Shown here: positions 30,578 through 39,729 of the stretch, one piece after another
How positions within the stretch are numbered: the stretch's first letter is position 1
How the letters are laid out: every line of letters begins with the position of its first letter
Assembly (NCBI GenBank): GCA_018920185.1
Contig: JAHLMT010000002.1
Span: forward strand, 93,871 to 157,870
Length of the DNA: 64,000 nucleotides
Direction of reading: 5' to 3'
From: Candidatus Aenigmatarchaeota archaeon
Lineage (GTDB): Archaea; Aenigmatarchaeota; Aenigmatarchaeia; CG10238-14; SCSR01
Translations under genes and position numbers: made by a program
Notes under the pieces: generated by a model
The model's database searches: none
Seen by the model: only the letters and a program-made list of their open reading frames with translations
Told to the model about the DNA's origin: nothing

Positions 30578-31087
30578 CTATCTTCTCTTTTTAATTACAA
30601 CTTTTCCTGTGAAAAGTAAAATTAAAACCACAAATAGTACAATAGCTAAAATCCAACCAATTGCAGAAAAAATTAGAAGTGCGTTGTAACTTGTGTAACA
30701 AGCTGGATAATAGTTGCCCATCATCCTCGTCATCATAGGTATCATATACTTACCCATCATTCCCTGAAAGACGGTTTCACATCCCAACCAATTTTTTCCC
30801 ATTGTAATGTGCATTTGTCTTAGACTCTCAGAGCCTTCACCACCCATCATAACATCCATCTGTTCATGTAATTCTTTATTACCTACCATTCTGTCCATTA
30901 CAGCATCTCCCAATTCTTCAAATTCGTGTTCAGAAATTTTATTGCAATCTAAATCGCTCGCCCGGCTAACATTTTGATTCGATATCATATGATTCATTAT
31001 ATTATCAACAGATTCAATTTCCATGTGAGCATATACAAAATTGACTAAGAATAGAATACTCGCAAATGTAATTAATATCTTTTTCAT
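30578..31087 (-). CDS. Met/His-rich exported membrane-anchored protein, possible metal binding
   Basis: Signal peptide MKKILITFASILFLVNFVYAH; Met-rich central region MDVMMGG...MMGKYMIPMMTRMMG; C-terminal TM. Confidence 0.72.
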   Translation of the reverse strand: MKKILITFASILFLVNFVYAHMEIESVDNIMNHMISNQNVSRASDLDCNKISEHEFEELGDAVMDRMVGNKELHEQMDVMMGGEGSESLRQMHITMGKNWLGCETVFQGMMGKYMIPMMTRMMGNYYPACYTSYNALLIFSAIGWILAIVLFVVLILLFTGKVVIKKRR

Positions 31088-31115
31088 ACAATCAACTTTT
31101 GTTTTTTTTAACTAA

Positions 31116-31160
31116 TTATTGATGGTGTTTGCACTTTCTACTTCCGCAACATTTTGGCAT
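31116..31160 (-). CDS. 14-aa Cys/His-rich micro-ORF MPKCCGSRKCKHHQ
   Basis: AGGAGGT Shine-Dalgarno 6 nt before ATG, embedded in the last codons of the upstream gene. Confidence 0.45.
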   Translation of the reverse strand: MPKCCGSRKCKHHQ

Positions 31161-31163
31161 ATA

Positions 31164-31835
31164 CTAACCTCCTAAACATTCCTTATATCTATCAGGATGA
31201 TGACTCATGTGTTCTCTCCAAGCTCCATCTGTATATCCTGGTGGTGTTGTACATTTATCATTTAATTCAGTTGCAATAAATTTTCTATAACCAACATATT
31301 TCTTGTACCATTGATACACTAGGAACGAAAAAACTACAATTAACACTATAAGAACTACGCCAAAAGTAATCTGCAACAATACTTTTCTATCTATATTGAA
31401 TTTTACTCTATTTTTCTTCGCAAGATTTATCATACTAATTATACCTACTATGTTTGAAACTATACCAACTGCAAGTAAAACTGGTTGATACTGTAATAGA
31501 AATACACCAACAGCTGACACACCAAGAATAGGCATTACATCAGTTACATGATGAACACAGCATGCTACCATTGATGTCATGGATATACCTCCACATGCAC
31601 CAGTTGTGCCTGTAGACATTTTCATAAAATTTCTGATATAAATAAAAAGACCAACCTGAACTCCAAATCCAATTACAAGTGGAGTCATCAAGTACCAGAA
31701 CTCTACGAATCTACCAATAGCATAATTCAATCCTTGAAACAAACTAACAATTATCAAGTACAGAAAAATAAGCGATAAGCTTGATAAAATACCGTAAATA
31801 ATAGACTTTCTCCAAATCTTAGTTTTTCTAACCAT
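31164..31835 (-). CDS. Multi-TM protein with Cys/His motif, possible metal transporter
   Basis: TGACGGISMTSMVACCVHHVTDVMPILG within TM region. Confidence 0.7.
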   Translation of the reverse strand: MVRKTKIWRKSIIYGILSSLSLIFLYLIIVSLFQGLNYAIGRFVEFWYLMTPLVIGFGVQVGLFIYIRNFMKMSTGTTGACGGISMTSMVACCVHHVTDVMPILGVSAVGVFLLQYQPVLLAVGIVSNIVGIISMINLAKKNRVKFNIDRKVLLQITFGVVLIVLIVVFSFLVYQWYKKYVGYRKFIATELNDKCTTPPGYTDGAWREHMSHHPDRYKECLGG

Positions 31836-31899
31836 TCTTACAACACTCTATCATAGCTTTTGCTATCTTTTTAAGTATCTGTTTAAATCTGAATCTCAT
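31828..31899 (-). CDS. 23-aa micro-ORF MRFRFKQILKKIAKAMIECCKNG
   Basis: ATGA overlap with upstream stop and stop overlapping downstream start; not in ORF track. Confidence 0.5.
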   Translation of the reverse strand: MRFRFKQILKKIAKAMIECCKNG

Positions 31900-32240
31900 C
31901 TATAAACACCTGACAATATCAAATAAACAATCAAAACTCCAAAAAGAATTACCAACGGCTTTATTAAAAGTAAGTTCTTGTTTTCAGTAGTTTTAACTCT
32001 TCTTTCTAGAAAATACATAAATCCTACCACCGAACCTCCCATAAGAATCGCAACAATACTCTGGGGAATGGCATATCCGATTAATTTCATCACCAACAAA
32101 CCTGACCATGTTGAAACAATAGTTGCGCAAATTGCACAAATCTCGAATTTAAAAATTCTCTTTATCAAATTTCTTAGAACTAGCCATGTGAAATAAATTC
32201 CTACCATTGTTAGCAACACATAATAAATTACATCAACCAT
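31896..32240 (-). CDS. Multi-TM protein of unknown function
   Basis: 114-aa ORF; ATG directly follows the upstream TAA; Cys pair FEICAICATIV. Confidence 0.7.
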   Translation of the reverse strand: MVDVIYYVLLTMVGIYFTWLVLRNLIKRIFKFEICAICATIVSTWSGLLVMKLIGYAIPQSIVAILMGGSVVGFMYFLERRVKTTENKNLLLIKPLVILFGVLIVYLILSGVYR

Positions 32241-32750
32241 TTACATCACCAAATATAAAACTAACGAACTCGTAATGAGCGATAGAATAAAAATAAAAAT
32301 AGACTGATAAGGCAGAAAATTTCTGTTTCTATTAAATTTTCTAAGAATCTCATGAAGTTTGAATGACGCGAAAGATACTCCAATTCCAATTAATGTGCCA
32401 AATAGAATCCTATCAATACCAAATATCTTGAAAGGATTTGGAGGACCAATTAATTTAGCAAAATAAAATGTTACAATTGTGAGGATAAAGAATATAATCA
32501 ATACTATGACAGGTTGAAATGGGATATACTCCTTTCCCTTATTGTGTCTTTTAACCATATTGTTTATCCACAATCCAGTTGCTACTACCATCCCTCCGAC
32601 AAATACACCAACAATAGAATCGTCAACACCGTACCATCTAGTAAATGCTACTGCTGCACCAGTTGCCGCTGTACACAAAGGACAATGTGCTAATACAGTT
32701 GAAATTAAAAAAATAAAGGAAAAAAGAAACGAAATAAAATAAAATTTCAT
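32241..32750 (-). CDS. Multi-TM protein of unknown function
   Basis: Signal/TM then AHCPLCTAATGAAVAFTRWYGVDDS; GAGGTGA before ATG. Confidence 0.72.
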   Translation of the reverse strand: MKFYFISFLFSFIFLISTVLAHCPLCTAATGAAVAFTRWYGVDDSIVGVFVGGMVVATGLWINNMVKRHNKGKEYIPFQPVIVLIIFFILTIVTFYFAKLIGPPNPFKIFGIDRILFGTLIGIGVSFASFKLHEILRKFNRNRNFLPYQSIFIFILSLITSSLVLYLVM

Positions 32751-32770: not shown

Positions 32771-32878
32771 TCAGTAGCAACCTTTTCCTCCCCTATTTTT
32801 CATCCTACAAAAGTTTTTGTGATCTAGCTTCATTCCACATTGTTCACATCTCGACATTCCTAATCCAAATTTAACCAT
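32771..32878 (-). CDS. 35-aa Cys-rich micro-ORF MVKFGLGMSRCEQCGMKLDHKNFCRMKNRGGKGCY
   Basis: CxxC + H + C pattern; overlaps the upstream CDS end by 8 nt; not in ORF track. Confidence 0.6.
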   Translation of the reverse strand: MVKFGLGMSRCEQCGMKLDHKNFCRMKNRGGKGCY

Positions 32879-33308
32879 GGTGGCTCCTCATATTGCTAAA
32901 ATCTTGTGTTCTTATCACCCTTGCAGTTCCGTCAGAATCAAGAATTTCTATTATCATTTTTTCTGGACCATACATATGTATGCAAGGCTGTACAGCCATA
33001 TTGTGACGATAACGAAAATTTAACACACCATATTCAGCTGTCTTTATACCACCATCACATTCGGTAATTGGTGAGCCCACGCAATTTCTATCATACACAC
33101 TTATGCCTTCTATTCTTCCTGGTTTGACTTTTACATTTGTTATCTTACCTTCGAACACATTAAGATCTGATGGAATATCGTAACTTGTATACCCAGTTTT
33201 AGGTGCATATAGTTTGTAACCAAAGACTGTCATTAACCCTAGTAATAGAGTTATGATTGCTATACTTAATACCCAACCGCTAACTTTTATTTTAATCAAT
33301 TTTATCAA
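32871..33308 (-). CDS. Membrane-anchored extracytoplasmic protein of unknown function
   Basis: N-terminal TM, Cys/His-containing ectodomain (NCVGSPITECDGG, YRHNMAVQPCIHMYG). Confidence 0.7.
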   Translation of the reverse strand: MIKLIKIKVSGWVLSIAIITLLLGLMTVFGYKLYAPKTGYTSYDIPSDLNVFEGKITNVKVKPGRIEGISVYDRNCVGSPITECDGGIKTAEYGVLNFRYRHNMAVQPCIHMYGPEKMIIEILDSDGTARVIRTQDFSNMRSHHG

Positions 33309-33344
33309 AAATTAACTCAAGGAAATATCTTATAAACATTAAAG

Positions 33345-33358
33345 TGAAACTAGTTTCA
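33345..33358. promoter_or_regulatory. Perfect 14-bp palindrome TGAAACTAGTTTCA, upstream copy
   Basis: Identical to 33821-33834; adjoins a TTTATAAG TATA-like box for the 33308 gene. Confidence 0.7.
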
Positions 33359-33844
33359 TTCAGTTTTTAGCAGCACCAGATTACTCATTCCGCGTCTTCT
33401 TCGCTCAACTAATCCTTTAGTTTCTAACCTGTCTAATATCCTGCTTACTTTTACTTTTGAGAATCCGCTTACATTAATCAAATCATTCTGAAATGCAGAA
33501 CCGTCATTTTTAGTCAACTCGTTGAATATCTTCTTTTCATCCTCGGACAAATCTTTAATAATTTTATTTAACTTTGCTTTAGAAATTGTTTGTGTTCTCT
33601 CTCCTTTAGGTTGGTTAAGAGCCAGATAACTTCCTATACCAGCAGATACTATTAGAATACCAAATCCCGCATAAGCTTGCACAGGTATATGATTGACTAA
33701 AGTACAAGATGGTGACCCACATAACGCATGTTCCATACGTGCATACCCAAGGGAAATGGTTAACAAAATGACAAACATTATAATGGATATACCAATTATT
33801 GACATACCAAGATAGTTTGTTGAAACTAGTTTCATATACGACAA
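33356..33844 (-). CDS. Membrane-anchored winged-helix transcriptional regulator
   Basis: Two TMs with CGSPSC loop, then AFQNDLINVSGFSKVKVSRILDRLETKGLVERRRRGMSNLVLL; likely ATG at 33835. Confidence 0.85.
   Translation of the reverse strand: MSYMKLVSTNYLGMSIIGISIIMFVILLTISLGYARMEHALCGSPSCTLVNHIPVQAYAGFGILIVSAGIGSYLALNQPKGERTQTISKAKLNKIIKDLSEDEKKIFNELTKNDGSAFQNDLINVSGFSKVKVSRILDRLETKGLVERRRRGMSNLVLLKTE
33821..33834. promoter_or_regulatory. Perfect 14-bp palindrome TGAAACTAGTTTCA at regulator start codon
   Basis: Identical to 33345-33358; abuts ATG at 33835, with a TTAAATA box ~25 nt upstream. Confidence 0.7.
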
Positions 33845-33860
33845 TTCAAATTTTGAGTAT

Positions 33861-36014
33861 TTAAGTGTTAGCTATTGGCGGTTTGTATCTATTTAGAAGC
33901 ATAGCATTTCCTACTACAGAAATTGAGCTAGTAGCCATAGCCATAGCGGCATAAATAGGATTCAACAAAATACCAAAGAAGGGATATAGTAATCCTGCAG
34001 CTACTGGAATCAATGCCACATTGTAAAAGAATGCCCAGAAAAGATTCTGTTTCATCTTGTTCACAGTTGCTTTGCTCAAATCAATCGCAGTTACAACATC
34101 ACGCAAATCATTCTTAATCAGCACTATCCCGCCAGTTTCTTTTGCAATATCTGTTCCTGCACCTATAGCGATACCAACATCGGCTTGTGCCAACATAGGT
34201 GCGTCATTAATACCGTCACCACATGCTGCAACAATTTCTCCTCTTTCCTGTAATTCTTTCACTTTCTTTGCTTTGTCCTGAGGTAGTACCTGTGCCATTA
34301 TCTTATCTTCATCAATTCCAATTTGCGATGCAATTGCTTTAGCAGTTCTCTCGTTATCACCAGTAATCATCCAGACTTCTTTGCCCATTCTCTTTAATTC
34401 TTTAACAGCTTCTTTTGAAAATTCTTTTAATGTGTCAGCAATTGCAATCAATCCAACAACTTTTTTATTGTAAACAACTATCACAACAGTTTTACCCTCG
34501 CTTTCTAGTTTTTGAATTTGTTCTTCAAGATTTTCTGTTTGTATGTTGTTGTCTTTCATGAGTATTCTGTTCCCAACTAAGACAGTTCTATTCTGATAAG
34601 TTGCTTTAATTCCTTTTCCGGCAACAGTTTCGTACGATTTCCCTTCACGCAATGTTAGTTTCATTTCCCTAGCTTTTTTAATTATAGCCTGTCCTAACGG
34701 GTGTTCCGACCCTTTTTCAGCTAGTGCAGCCAACTCAAGTACATCCTTTTCTGTAGAACCTATTGGAATAACATCAGTAACAGAAGGTTCCCCTTTTGTC
34801 AATGTTCCGGTCTTGTCAAAAATAATCGATGTTATCTTATGTGTTTTCTCTAAATACTCACCGCTTTTAATTAAAATTCCATTCTGCGCACCTTTACCTG
34901 CGCCAATCATTATTGCAGACGGTGTAGCGATTCCTAAAGCACATGGACACGCAATTATTAGAACAGAAATCAAGATTGTCAATGCCAACGGGAATGATAA
35001 TCCACCCACAAAATACCATAGGATAAATGAACCTATAGCAATCAATATAACAACAGGAACAAAATAAGCTGATACCAAATCAGCCATCCTTTGCATGGGT
35101 GCTCTACTAGCTATCGCTTCCTGTACCATTTTAACTATTTGTGATAATGTCATCTCAGCTCCAACTCTCGTCGCTTTTACTTTCAACAAACCACTTTTGT
35201 TAATCGTCGCGCCGATAACCTCGTCACCAACCTTCTTACCAACAGGTATTGACTCACCTGTAATCATTGATTCATCAATCGAAGAATGACCTTCTACAAT
35301 AACTCCATCAACAGCTATCTTTTCACCTGGTTTCACAATGAAAATATCACCAACTTTAACTTGTTCAATAGGAATTTGCTGTTCTTTTCCGTCTCTGATA
35401 ACAGTTGCTAACTTTGGTTGTAAGTCAATCAGTTTTCTGATAGCTTGCGATGCCCTTCCCTTTACCAAATGTTCAAAATATTTTCCAAGTAGAATGAAAC
35501 CAATAATCAAACCAGATTCTGTAAAATATACTTCTGGTCCGCCAGTTGTAACTTTTGGAAATATCTGTGGCCATAGAATTCCTTGGAATGTGTAAATAGT
35601 ACTGTAAATCCATGCGGCTGATGTACCGATGGCGATTAAACTATCCATGTTAGCTTGCTTAGCTTTTATTGCATCAAGAGTTCCTCTGTAAAACCTCCAC
35701 CCGCCAATAAACTGCACAGGAGTTGCTAAGAAAAATAGCCAAATGTAGTTAGGTATGTCAAACCATGAAATTTTGTAGATATATTCAAATATTGCTGTAA
35801 GTGCTCCCAAACTCAGGCTGAATATTGTGATGTATTTAAGTTTTTTAATTTCTTTTTGTGGTTTTAGGAAAGTATCCAGACAATTGTTGCTACAGAAATA
35901 ATATTTCATTCCATCTTGTTCAGCTTTAAATGGAGTCTTATTTTCATCAACATACATCCCACAGACAATATCTTTTGCCACAGACTCTCTCCTCTTACAA
36001 TTTAACATTCGCAA
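33861..36014 (-). CDS. copA: P1B-type heavy-metal (copper) ATPase with N-terminal YHS/TRASH-like domain
   Basis: [48 protein letters not shown] (CPC); [11 protein letters not shown]; likely GTG start at 35981 with GAGGAGA upstream. Confidence 0.93.
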
Positions 36015-37616: not shown

Positions 37617-39020
37617 TCACAATCCTAAATTCTGCAAGTACTGCTTAACTGCATATGAACCCGATATGGATGAATATTGCTTTCCTGCAATAAGCTCTCT
37701 GTCAACATCATTCCAATCTTTGTTTTCTACCAATTTAAAGTATAATGCATCTTGGATGTATGTGGCAGGGAACCAGTACGAGTTGAATTTAACAAATGCG
37801 TCAAATATTTGTTTCTTGTTATATCCTTGTGATGCCATCAACTCAATTAATCCTAGAGCAGCAAATCCGTGAGAACAATCAGGATGACCTGTAGGATTTC
37901 CACAACATGGTCTGTAAGAATTTAATGCAACATACTTTGCAATTTCCTGTTGTTCTGGTGTCAGTTCAATCAACTTAACATCTCCATAGCCAGCTCTACC
38001 AACTCCAATATCATAATTTTGAAAATACTGAGCGAACGGACTATCATGCAGAATTGGATTATCATTATGTTTCGCCAACGTCCATAAAATATACATCATG
38101 AATACCGCATTCTTAGAGTTGATTGTTAATTTTTCATTCGAGTACTCAGATGTGAGCAATTTCTTTTGCTCTTCAGTTAGTGGTTGTCCGTATCTTTTCG
38201 TCATTATATTGTTTAATTTATCAATATCCAGCACACCGGCTTTAACCATCTTGCTTATAGAATCTTTCCATGTCACATCGATAGTAAATCCTTCTTCCGG
38301 TAGAACTTGAGAAATTATTTTTTCTAAGTCTAAATTATTTTTATGTTCATCTGTAGCAACTGTAGCTCCTGTAATTCCTGTGGCAGCAAATACAAATGGC
38401 AAAATTTGATAACCAAGAGCAAGAATTGCTAAAATCAGAAAACCAAAGAAAACAAAATTTTGTATTGGAGTTAATGTTCCACCGAATATGCTAGTTTCAA
38501 CTTTTCTTTCTTTCGCAGGTTCAGTTGTACATGCTAGACAAATATTTTCATAAGAATATTTAACAGTTACTACTAAGCCTAACGTCAATAAAATTAATCC
38601 AGCAATCTGTATCCAAAATAAATAAGGAATCAAGGAAACCAAAGGAACTGTTATAAAATTACCGAATACAAGAAAGTTCACACCTAAGCATACAGGACAA
38701 ATTGCACCAAACAATCCAGTAGATACACCAAAGAAAGCTAGACCTCTTGTAAGAGCTTTCTTTTGGATAGAATATTTCGTCAATGTCACGATTAACGCAG
38801 ATAAAATTGAAGAAGAGAATATGTAGAAATAATCAAATGCATCAGGCTTAACATCCTTAAAAAATCCTATCTCTAGAATCGGGACTGTGAAAACACCATA
38901 AAAGAACAGATACAAAAGACTGAATGTTATTAACGAAGTTATAAAGAATATCAAATTTCTTCGAGCCACAACGGTAAAGGTATTTGAAATCACCTTTTTG
39001 ATATTAGATTCCATTTTCAT
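37617..39020 (-). CDS. Multi-TM protein with large Cys/His-containing C-terminal ectodomain
   Basis: GLFGAICPVCLGVNFLVFG in TM region; RPCCGNPTGHPDCSHGFAALGLIELM in C-terminal domain. Confidence 0.72.
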   Translation of the reverse strand: MKMESNIKKVISNTFTVVARRNLIFFITSLITFSLLYLFFYGVFTVPILEIGFFKDVKPDAFDYFYIFSSSILSALIVTLTKYSIQKKALTRGLAFFGVSTGLFGAICPVCLGVNFLVFGNFITVPLVSLIPYLFWIQIAGLILLTLGLVVTVKYSYENICLACTTEPAKERKVETSIFGGTLTPIQNFVFFGFLILAILALGYQILPFVFAATGITGATVATDEHKNNLDLEKIISQVLPEEGFTIDVTWKDSISKMVKAGVLDIDKLNNIMTKRYGQPLTEEQKKLLTSEYSNEKLTINSKNAVFMMYILWTLAKHNDNPILHDSPFAQYFQNYDIGVGRAGYGDVKLIELTPEQQEIAKYVALNSYRPCCGNPTGHPDCSHGFAALGLIELMASQGYNKKQIFDAFVKFNSYWFPATYIQDALYFKLVENKDWNDVDRELIAGKQYSSISGSYAVKQYLQNLGL

Positions 39021-39057: not shown

Positions 39058-39729
39058 CTATCTTCTTAAAACCATACTTCTACCAGAGTTATCCTTTGCG
39101 AAATCTGTGACATTATTCTGTTGTAGTTGGATTTCTTCATCAGTTTCATTACCATAGGTGATCAATATTTTGTCCAAATCTTTAAAAACGTATTTCTCAT
39201 ATTCAAAATTCTGCTCCCAAGTACCATTCACATGTTTAACAAACATTTTCAAAGTATTAACACCATCGTTACAGTATTTGTTGTCCTTATTAATTTCAAA
39301 ACATTTTGAAGTAAGTTTCATCCCTAAGCTGTTGAAGAACATCTTTAACGGAACATTTGTTGCATGCATATGAATCACACTTCCGGCTCCAGGTCCTGCC
39401 TCAACATGTATATAAGGACTCGCTACATAGTATTGTTCTGGTAATGGTGTGATCTTTTTACCATTCAAGAATATTGCAAAGTCCGCGTGTATATGTGTTG
39501 AACCCAAGGTTCCTATGCTTTCTGTTGTCAGAGCCCAGTAAATTGCATACCCTATTAAACCAAAGATTACGATTGGAATAACTATTGCAAAAAGTTTACC
39601 TTTTGATATTTTCTTCTTTTCAACTTGACTAACAGCAGAGGCTTGTTTATGTGCATCATTCTTGTGTTGCTTCAACGCTTCATTAGTTTTGAACTTCCTG
39701 TTGCAGATGTCACAAGAAACCTTTTCCAT
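39058..39729 (-). CDS. C2H2 finger + TM + His-containing ectodomain protein
   Basis: MEKVSCDICNRKFKTNEALKQHKNDAH; TM; STHIHADFAIFLNGKKITPLPEQYY...VIHMHAT. Confidence 0.82.
   Translation of the reverse strand: MEKVSCDICNRKFKTNEALKQHKNDAHKQASAVSQVEKKKISKGKLFAIVIPIVIFGLIGYAIYWALTTESIGTLGSTHIHADFAIFLNGKKITPLPEQYYVASPYIHVEAGPGAGSVIHMHATNVPLKMFFNSLGMKLTSKCFEINKDNKYCNDGVNTLKMFVKHVNGTWEQNFEYEKYVFKDLDKILITYGNETDEEIQLQQNNVTDFAKDNSGRSMVLRR

Follow-up and report, generated by a model that had tools for sequence, protein, structure and literature searches.

What is the role of a perfect 14-bp palindrome that an archaeal genome carries at both ends of one small gene? This question arises at a locus in a 64,000-nucleotide stretch (the window) of contig JAHLMT010000002.1, from a Candidatus Aenigmatarchaeota metagenome-assembled genome (MAG) of 643,152 bases, whose nearest relatives are also Candidatus Aenigmatarchaeota MAGs. 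The gene encodes a predicted membrane-embedded transcriptional regulator, and the original prediction, made by eye, proposed that the palindrome, TGAAACTAGTTTCA, is the operator of this regulator and controls both the regulator gene and the downstream operon. We found that the co-occurrence of palindrome and regulator in two phyla, together with a fixed distance to the TATA box, strongly supports this proposal, and we regard the operator–regulator pairing as highly probable. The elements concerned are as follows.

33345..33358, strand unassigned: operator copy 1, TGAAACTAGTTTCA, exact match, overlapping the TGA stop codon of the regulator and just upstream of the TFB recognition element (BRE) and TATA box of the 33308 operon
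33821..33834, strand unassigned: operator copy 2, TGAAACTAGTTTCA, exact match, at +2 to +15 of the regulator gene (codons 1-5)
33356..33835, minus strand: regulator, 159 aa, with two transmembrane (TM) helices, loop cysteines C39/C44 and a C-terminal winged helix (DUF7343/MarR-like), from Pfam, a 31-homologue alignment and AlphaFold2
33329..33336, minus strand: putative TATA box TTTATAAG of the 33308 operon, from sequence, at the commonest TATA offset (9) in both phyla
33322..33326, minus strand: degenerate third half-site ATTTC, directly downstream of that TATA box, at offset 18 from copy 1
33858..33864, minus strand: putative TATA box TTAAATA of the regulator promoter, from sequence, overlapping the ATPase stop codon

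Copies of the palindrome and their spread with the regulator

A search of the whole genome showed that the two palindromes are exact, as first read, and that they are the only exact copies, each touching the regulator gene, where a first-order Markov model predicts about 0.011 copies per genome and 0.001 per window. Matches with two or three mismatches were no commoner than chance in the window and the genome, so that no degenerate family of TGAAACTAGTTTCA is hidden there; one extra candidate at 39307 was rejected, as it falls within a coding region. The description of the copies as flanking the gene held insofar as both touch its ends. Copy 1 lies over the stop codon, beginning with the TGA (33358-33356), and copy 2 lies within codons 1-5 (MKLVS; ATG AAA CTA GTT TCA); it does not abut the ATG (33835-33833), as had been thought, but overlaps it, starting at its second base.

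We then searched for the exact 14-mer in other archaea, and found it in 41 of 159 Aenigmatarchaeota genomes (reversed control, about 1 of 159) and in 94 of 380 genomes of the Nanoarchaeota phylum (reversed control, 3 of 380), which was reached through a Woesearchaeota homologue of the regulator. None of 149 Halobacteriota genomes carried it, and the haloarchaeal homologues, whose phylum is without the site, match the winged helix alone. With the regulator called present at E <= 1e-11 in Aenigmatarchaeota (68 genomes) and E <= 1e-20 in the Nanoarchaeota phylum (199 genomes), it was encoded by 37 of the 41 site-bearing genomes of the former (Fisher p about 3e-13), and by 91 of the 94 of the latter (Fisher p about 4e-27), in both phyla usually near the site. 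The tests treat genomes as independent, and shared ancestry inflates these p-values; the conclusion therefore rests as much on adjacency (median gap between site and regulator match of 31 bp in 36 Aenigmatarchaeota pairs) and on promoter geometry. Rather than being frequent genome-wide or unconserved at orthologous promoters, TGAAACTAGTTTCA is thus rare and conserved, and the phylogenetic footprinting suggested at the outset showed the palindrome kept at orthologous promoters in both phyla.

In six Aenigmatarchaeota relatives (G003, G004, G005, G016, G007 and G011), the orthologous locus holds this palindrome too, either near the regulator gene or just past it. We dropped some further copies that are intragenic and without matching TATA context, namely core-only ones at other places in G004 and G005 and a single copy in G016. 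The genome G358 has one site near the regulator and a second (L224), on another contig, at the head of an HMA-DsbD-CopA operon; this arrangement suggests that the regulator acts in trans. The Nanoarchaeota-phylum genome G418 (L217-L222) contains nine exact 14-mers, three of them clustered at the regulator; five others that were examined had no clear TATA context. The regulators of two Aenigmatarchaeota genomes (L018 of G011 and L055 of G044) group with Nanoarchaeota-phylum ones (L167 of G234; node support 95/98), and this mixed branching suggests transfer of the regulon between phyla.

The two copies differ in distribution. A palindrome at regulator codons 1-5 was found only in G000, G003 (one mismatch), G005 and G016, which belong to one group of the regulator tree; the group also holds G004 and G007, both without copy 2, the contig of G004 ending there. 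G003, G005 and G016 have retained the codons AAA-CTA-GTT, at a protein identity of only 62-69%. Given K-L-V and the codon usage of the window, this choice has a probability of about 0.04 in one genome, and its retention points to constraint on the DNA. Judging by these comparisons, copy 1, the site of the downstream operon, is the ancient and conserved one, and copy 2 is a younger, lineage-specific addition.

Promoter geometry and the regulator protein

The TATA-like boxes noticed upstream of the regulator and of the 33308 operon stood where they had been placed. Between copy 1 and the TTG at 33308, TTTATAAG (33336-33329) starts 8 nt past the former and 28 nt before the latter, while TTAAATA (33864-33858) starts 29 nt upstream of the regulator ATG and recurs at equal distance from the regulator start in G003, G005, G016 and G007; at these distances, both transcripts look leaderless. 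The window half-site ATTTC differs at one position from the GTTTC of most relatives; the spacing from copy 1 is kept, with the half-site weakened.

To compare this arrangement across loci, we aligned 56 Aenigmatarchaeota and 36 Nanoarchaeota-phylum sites. The sites had been chosen at 13 or more matches out of 14, which inflates the conservation of the palindrome itself, and the strand was picked by the better promoter side; the offsets of the TATA box and of GTTTC lie outside this selection. The results showed that a TATA box starts at offset 9 in 62 of the 92 sites (34/56 Aenigmatarchaeota, 28/36 Nanoarchaeota), compared with 4.5% in shuffles, or about double that rate when the choice of strand is allowed for. 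The GTTTC half-site lies at offset 18 in 55 of 92 (44/56 and 11/36, respectively), compared with 0.09% in shuffles. The start codon of the downstream gene is mostly at offset 36-39, matching a leaderless +1, and at three loci with divergent promoters the TATA box and GTTTC are mirrored on both sides of one shared palindrome. In the Nanoarchaeota phylum, the palindrome often runs straight into a BRE-like CAAAAG. Among the promoters of this phylum (L167-L216), those with a strong BRE (AAAAG) had the half-site more rarely (p 0.025 within the group), a hint that it may compensate for weak TFB binding; the pooled value is confounded by phylum, and this trade-off is a lead only.

The regulator matches PF24034 (DUF7343) over residues 97-156 with 49.2 bits (gathering threshold 27.6; E 5e-13) and MarR_2 with 32.2 bits (cut-off 27), whereas its score against MarR PF01047, 22.9, is below the 24.6 required; its similarity to MarR_2, TrmB and Lrs14 is weak. 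A Foldseek search returned generic winged-helix matches only, none below E 0.001, and no Pfam or NCBIfam match was found in the regulator to the Lrp-type helix-turn-helix and C-terminal TRASH domain of the archaeal CopR family; compared with CopR, it has N-terminal TM helices and a C-terminal MarR-like wing. The AlphaFold2 model (mean predicted local distance difference test score, pLDDT, 68; 76-89 in the winged helix-turn-helix, wHTH, part) has two hydrophobic helices (4-38; 52-73) followed by a winged helix (86-156). From the sequence and this model of moderate confidence, the regulator is predicted to unite a TM region and a DNA-binding domain in one chain. In the alignment of 31 homologues from the two phyla, cysteines C39 and C44 of the loop never vary, and neither do F115, Q116, K127, R132, E138, E144, R147, R148, G149 and N152 in the DNA-binding part, which include positions of the recognition helix and the wing. 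Following the positive-inside rule, the positively charged stretch after the second TM helix would place the wHTH domain in the cytoplasm and the cysteines outside.

Genes downstream of the operator

In the window, the operon beyond copy 1 and the gene upstream of the regulator are composed as follows.

32871..33308, minus strand: first gene of the putatively controlled operon, an open reading frame (ORF) for a 145-aa membrane-anchored Cys/His protein, with its TTG start at the expected leaderless +1
32771..32878, minus strand: 35-aa Cys-rich protein with CEQCGMKLDHKNFC, from translation
32241..32750, minus strand: membrane protein with the HCPLCTAATG motif, whose kin lie downstream of the operator in 20 loci
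30578..32240, minus strand: other membrane-protein genes of the operon, all in the same direction (31896-32240, 31164-31835, 30578-31087), ORFs with homologues similarly placed in other loci
33861..36014, minus strand: copper-type P1B ATPase with a YHS domain, directly upstream of the regulator (TIGR01511, YHS, CPC motif)

The family of the 32871-33308 protein stands directly downstream of copy-1 orthologues in five loci. The 32771-32878 peptide, compared by eye, resembles small metal-binding peptides of the zinc-ribbon/TRASH type, and the HCPLCTAATG protein matched no Pfam or NCBIfam family above cut-off. The ATPase scores 612 bits against TIGR01511 (cutoff 397); in many relatives CopA is operator-controlled, unlike the window CopA.

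In relatives, the first genes downstream of the operator encode HMA-domain membrane proteins, HMA-cupredoxin proteins, CopA ATPases, DsbD-type HMA fusions and DUF411 proteins, as well as FtrD-like, AhpC/thioredoxin, DsbA and Cys-rich proteins. The palindrome thus lies directly upstream of the BRE and TATA box of copper genes, as the archaeal CopR motif does. Homologues of regulon genes were found within 1.5 kb at 34 of 50 Nanoarchaeota-phylum loci, and, apart from that of the regulator, no gene family is common to all the operator loci. Besides the HCPLCTAATG protein, a second unnamed family follows the operator, the CCG..CGCAHS protein (23 members, 20 loci). This extracytoplasmic CEYCCG...CGCAHS protein (L128:3886-4527 and 22 further members; 15 Nanoarchaeota loci), which had no Pfam or NCBIfam match, is a very common operator target. 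The window protein at 37617-39020 was considered as a member, and the similarity was not supported.

Proposed mode of action and relation to known systems

We propose that the regulator is a one-component transcription factor in the membrane, whose two TM helices would hold a short extracytoplasmic two-cysteine loop predicted to sense Cu(I) or a thiol, and whose cytoplasmic winged-helix domain would bind, as a dimer, to the palindrome. A dimer at copy 1, directly upstream of the BRE and TATA box, may help TFB and the TATA-binding protein (TBP) to assemble and so turn on the copper/thiol operon at 33308; in most Aenigmatarchaeota relatives, it might also contact the GTTTC half-site beyond the TATA box. 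At copy 2, a dimer would cover +2 to +15 of the leaderless regulator transcript and block transcription, giving negative autoregulation. There are precedents for both effects. TrmBL1 activates when bound upstream of the BRE and represses when bound downstream of the TATA box (PMC4706686), and Pyrococcus CopR, whose motif lies directly upstream of the BRE at copA, which it activates, represses copR in vitro as well (PMC7830388). By the placement of the sites and these precedents, activation at copy 1 is probable, and autorepression at copy 2 is equally so. Copper is somewhat favoured as the signal. The reading as a whole, with a membrane-embedded copper (or thiol) sensor, operon activation from copy 1 and self-repression from copy 2, seems to us a fairly probable one.

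Several observations weigh against this proposal. Copy 2 was seen in no more than four of the six closest relatives that were examined, and 31 of the 68 regulator-bearing Aenigmatarchaeota genomes have no exact site, although many genomes of this kind carry a version with one or two mismatches in the same geometry. The palindrome was not found at the 5' end of the window CopA/thioredoxin operon (33861 to about 39020), which makes the window regulon narrower than that of relatives. Moreover, the placement of a half-site past the TATA box fits a repressor acting by occlusion of that box as well. On that account, the palindrome and the half-site around the TATA box would both be occupied and the operon kept off until copper releases the regulator, as with CopY/ArsR, and most bacterial copper repressors act in this occluding way. 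The half-site lies right next to the TATA box with constant spacing, and a second dimer there would overlap TBP. We nevertheless consider such repression unlikely: the conserved full palindrome is upstream of the BRE and not over the BRE, TATA box or start, the Nanoarchaeota keep this upstream placement mostly without the half-site (GTTTC in 11 of 36), and sites upstream of the BRE were activating in the TrmBL1 and CopR studies (PMC4706686, PMC7830388).

The same operator and regulator might instead answer to the extracytoplasmic thiol-disulfide state, or to silver or another soft metal. A disulfide might form between the two invariant cysteines of the loop, and many targets are DsbD, DsbA, thioredoxin-like or Cys-rich proteins; yet HMA domains, copper-type ATPases, cupredoxin and DUF411 dominate many target operons, and the DsbD-HMA fusions too suggest copper handling, so that we hold another signal to be doubtful. 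That some other factor binds the palindrome, with the regulator gene merely linked to the site, is very improbable. Linkage by itself does not prove binding, but palindrome and regulator co-occur in two phyla, one lineage has an extra site at the regulator's own start, G358 has a site on another contig and still encodes the regulator, and no other gene family is common to all loci. The two copies form direct repeats exactly flanking the regulator gene, as would be the case if a regulator-bearing mobile cassette had left target-site duplications or recombination scars; most relatives, however, have the downstream copy alone, in a promoter, as a perfect palindrome at fixed TATA spacing. Such single promoter-placed copies refute a mobile-cassette or duplication origin as a general explanation, and its chance at this locus is negligible.

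The proposed circuit shares features with described systems. Like CopR of Pyrococcus furiosus and Thermococcus (PMC7830388), the regulator has a motif directly upstream of the BRE (there a semi-palindrome) and divergent promoters around one motif, and it is predicted to act like that archaeal copper regulator, which activates copA and represses its own gene. However, CopR is a soluble Lrp-type octamer with a TRASH domain and the motif TTNNCAWWWTGNNAA, whereas the present regulator is a two-TM winged-helix protein whose Cys loop is predicted to be external and whose 14-bp operator differs from that motif. The predicted position-dependent sign of regulation resembles TrmBL1 of P. furiosus, which belongs to the sugar-responsive, soluble TrmB family and, unlike the present regulator, recognizes TATCAC-N5-GTGATA (PMC4706686). 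A one-component layout with a membrane-tethered DNA-binding domain and extracytoplasmic sensing, as predicted here, is that of the transmembrane transcription regulators (TTRs), e.g., archaeal ArnR; the main text on these contains no MarR, copper, metal or DPANN example (PMC10269533), while the present family combines a MarR-like wing with a two-Cys loop. The winged-helix domain is shared with DUF7343/MarR and Lrs14 proteins, and the two-TM Cys-loop sensor sets the regulator family apart from them. A literature search, which covered few subscription journals and no preprints, found no mention of the 14-mer or of DUF7343, and nothing relevant on copper regulation in Aenigmatarchaeota/Woesearchaeota or on DPANN regulons. 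Membrane one-component regulators, position-dependent archaeal factors and copper operons are known kinds; what appears to be new is the regulator family, its operator, the bracketed TATA box and the conservation in two phyla. The fullest form of the claim has about an even chance of being right: a new family of two-Cys-loop membrane copper sensors with a virtually invariant 14-bp operator that brackets the TATA box together with a half-site, and a regulon in Aenigmatarchaeota and the Nanoarchaeota phylum that links metal sensed extracellularly straight to the basal promoter machinery.

To our knowledge, hardly any transcription factor with a known operator has been described in DPANN archaea. 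If the proposal is true, this would be among the first regulatory circuits worked out for these tiny, largely uncultured organisms. An operator identical in two phyla, with tight promoter geometry, would make the copper/thiol regulon readable from metagenome sequence and mark a number of unnamed Cys-rich families as having to do with copper or thiols. The small soluble wHTH domain and its 14-bp site would make the action of a membrane-tethered factor on an archaeal TBP/TFB promoter open to direct study.
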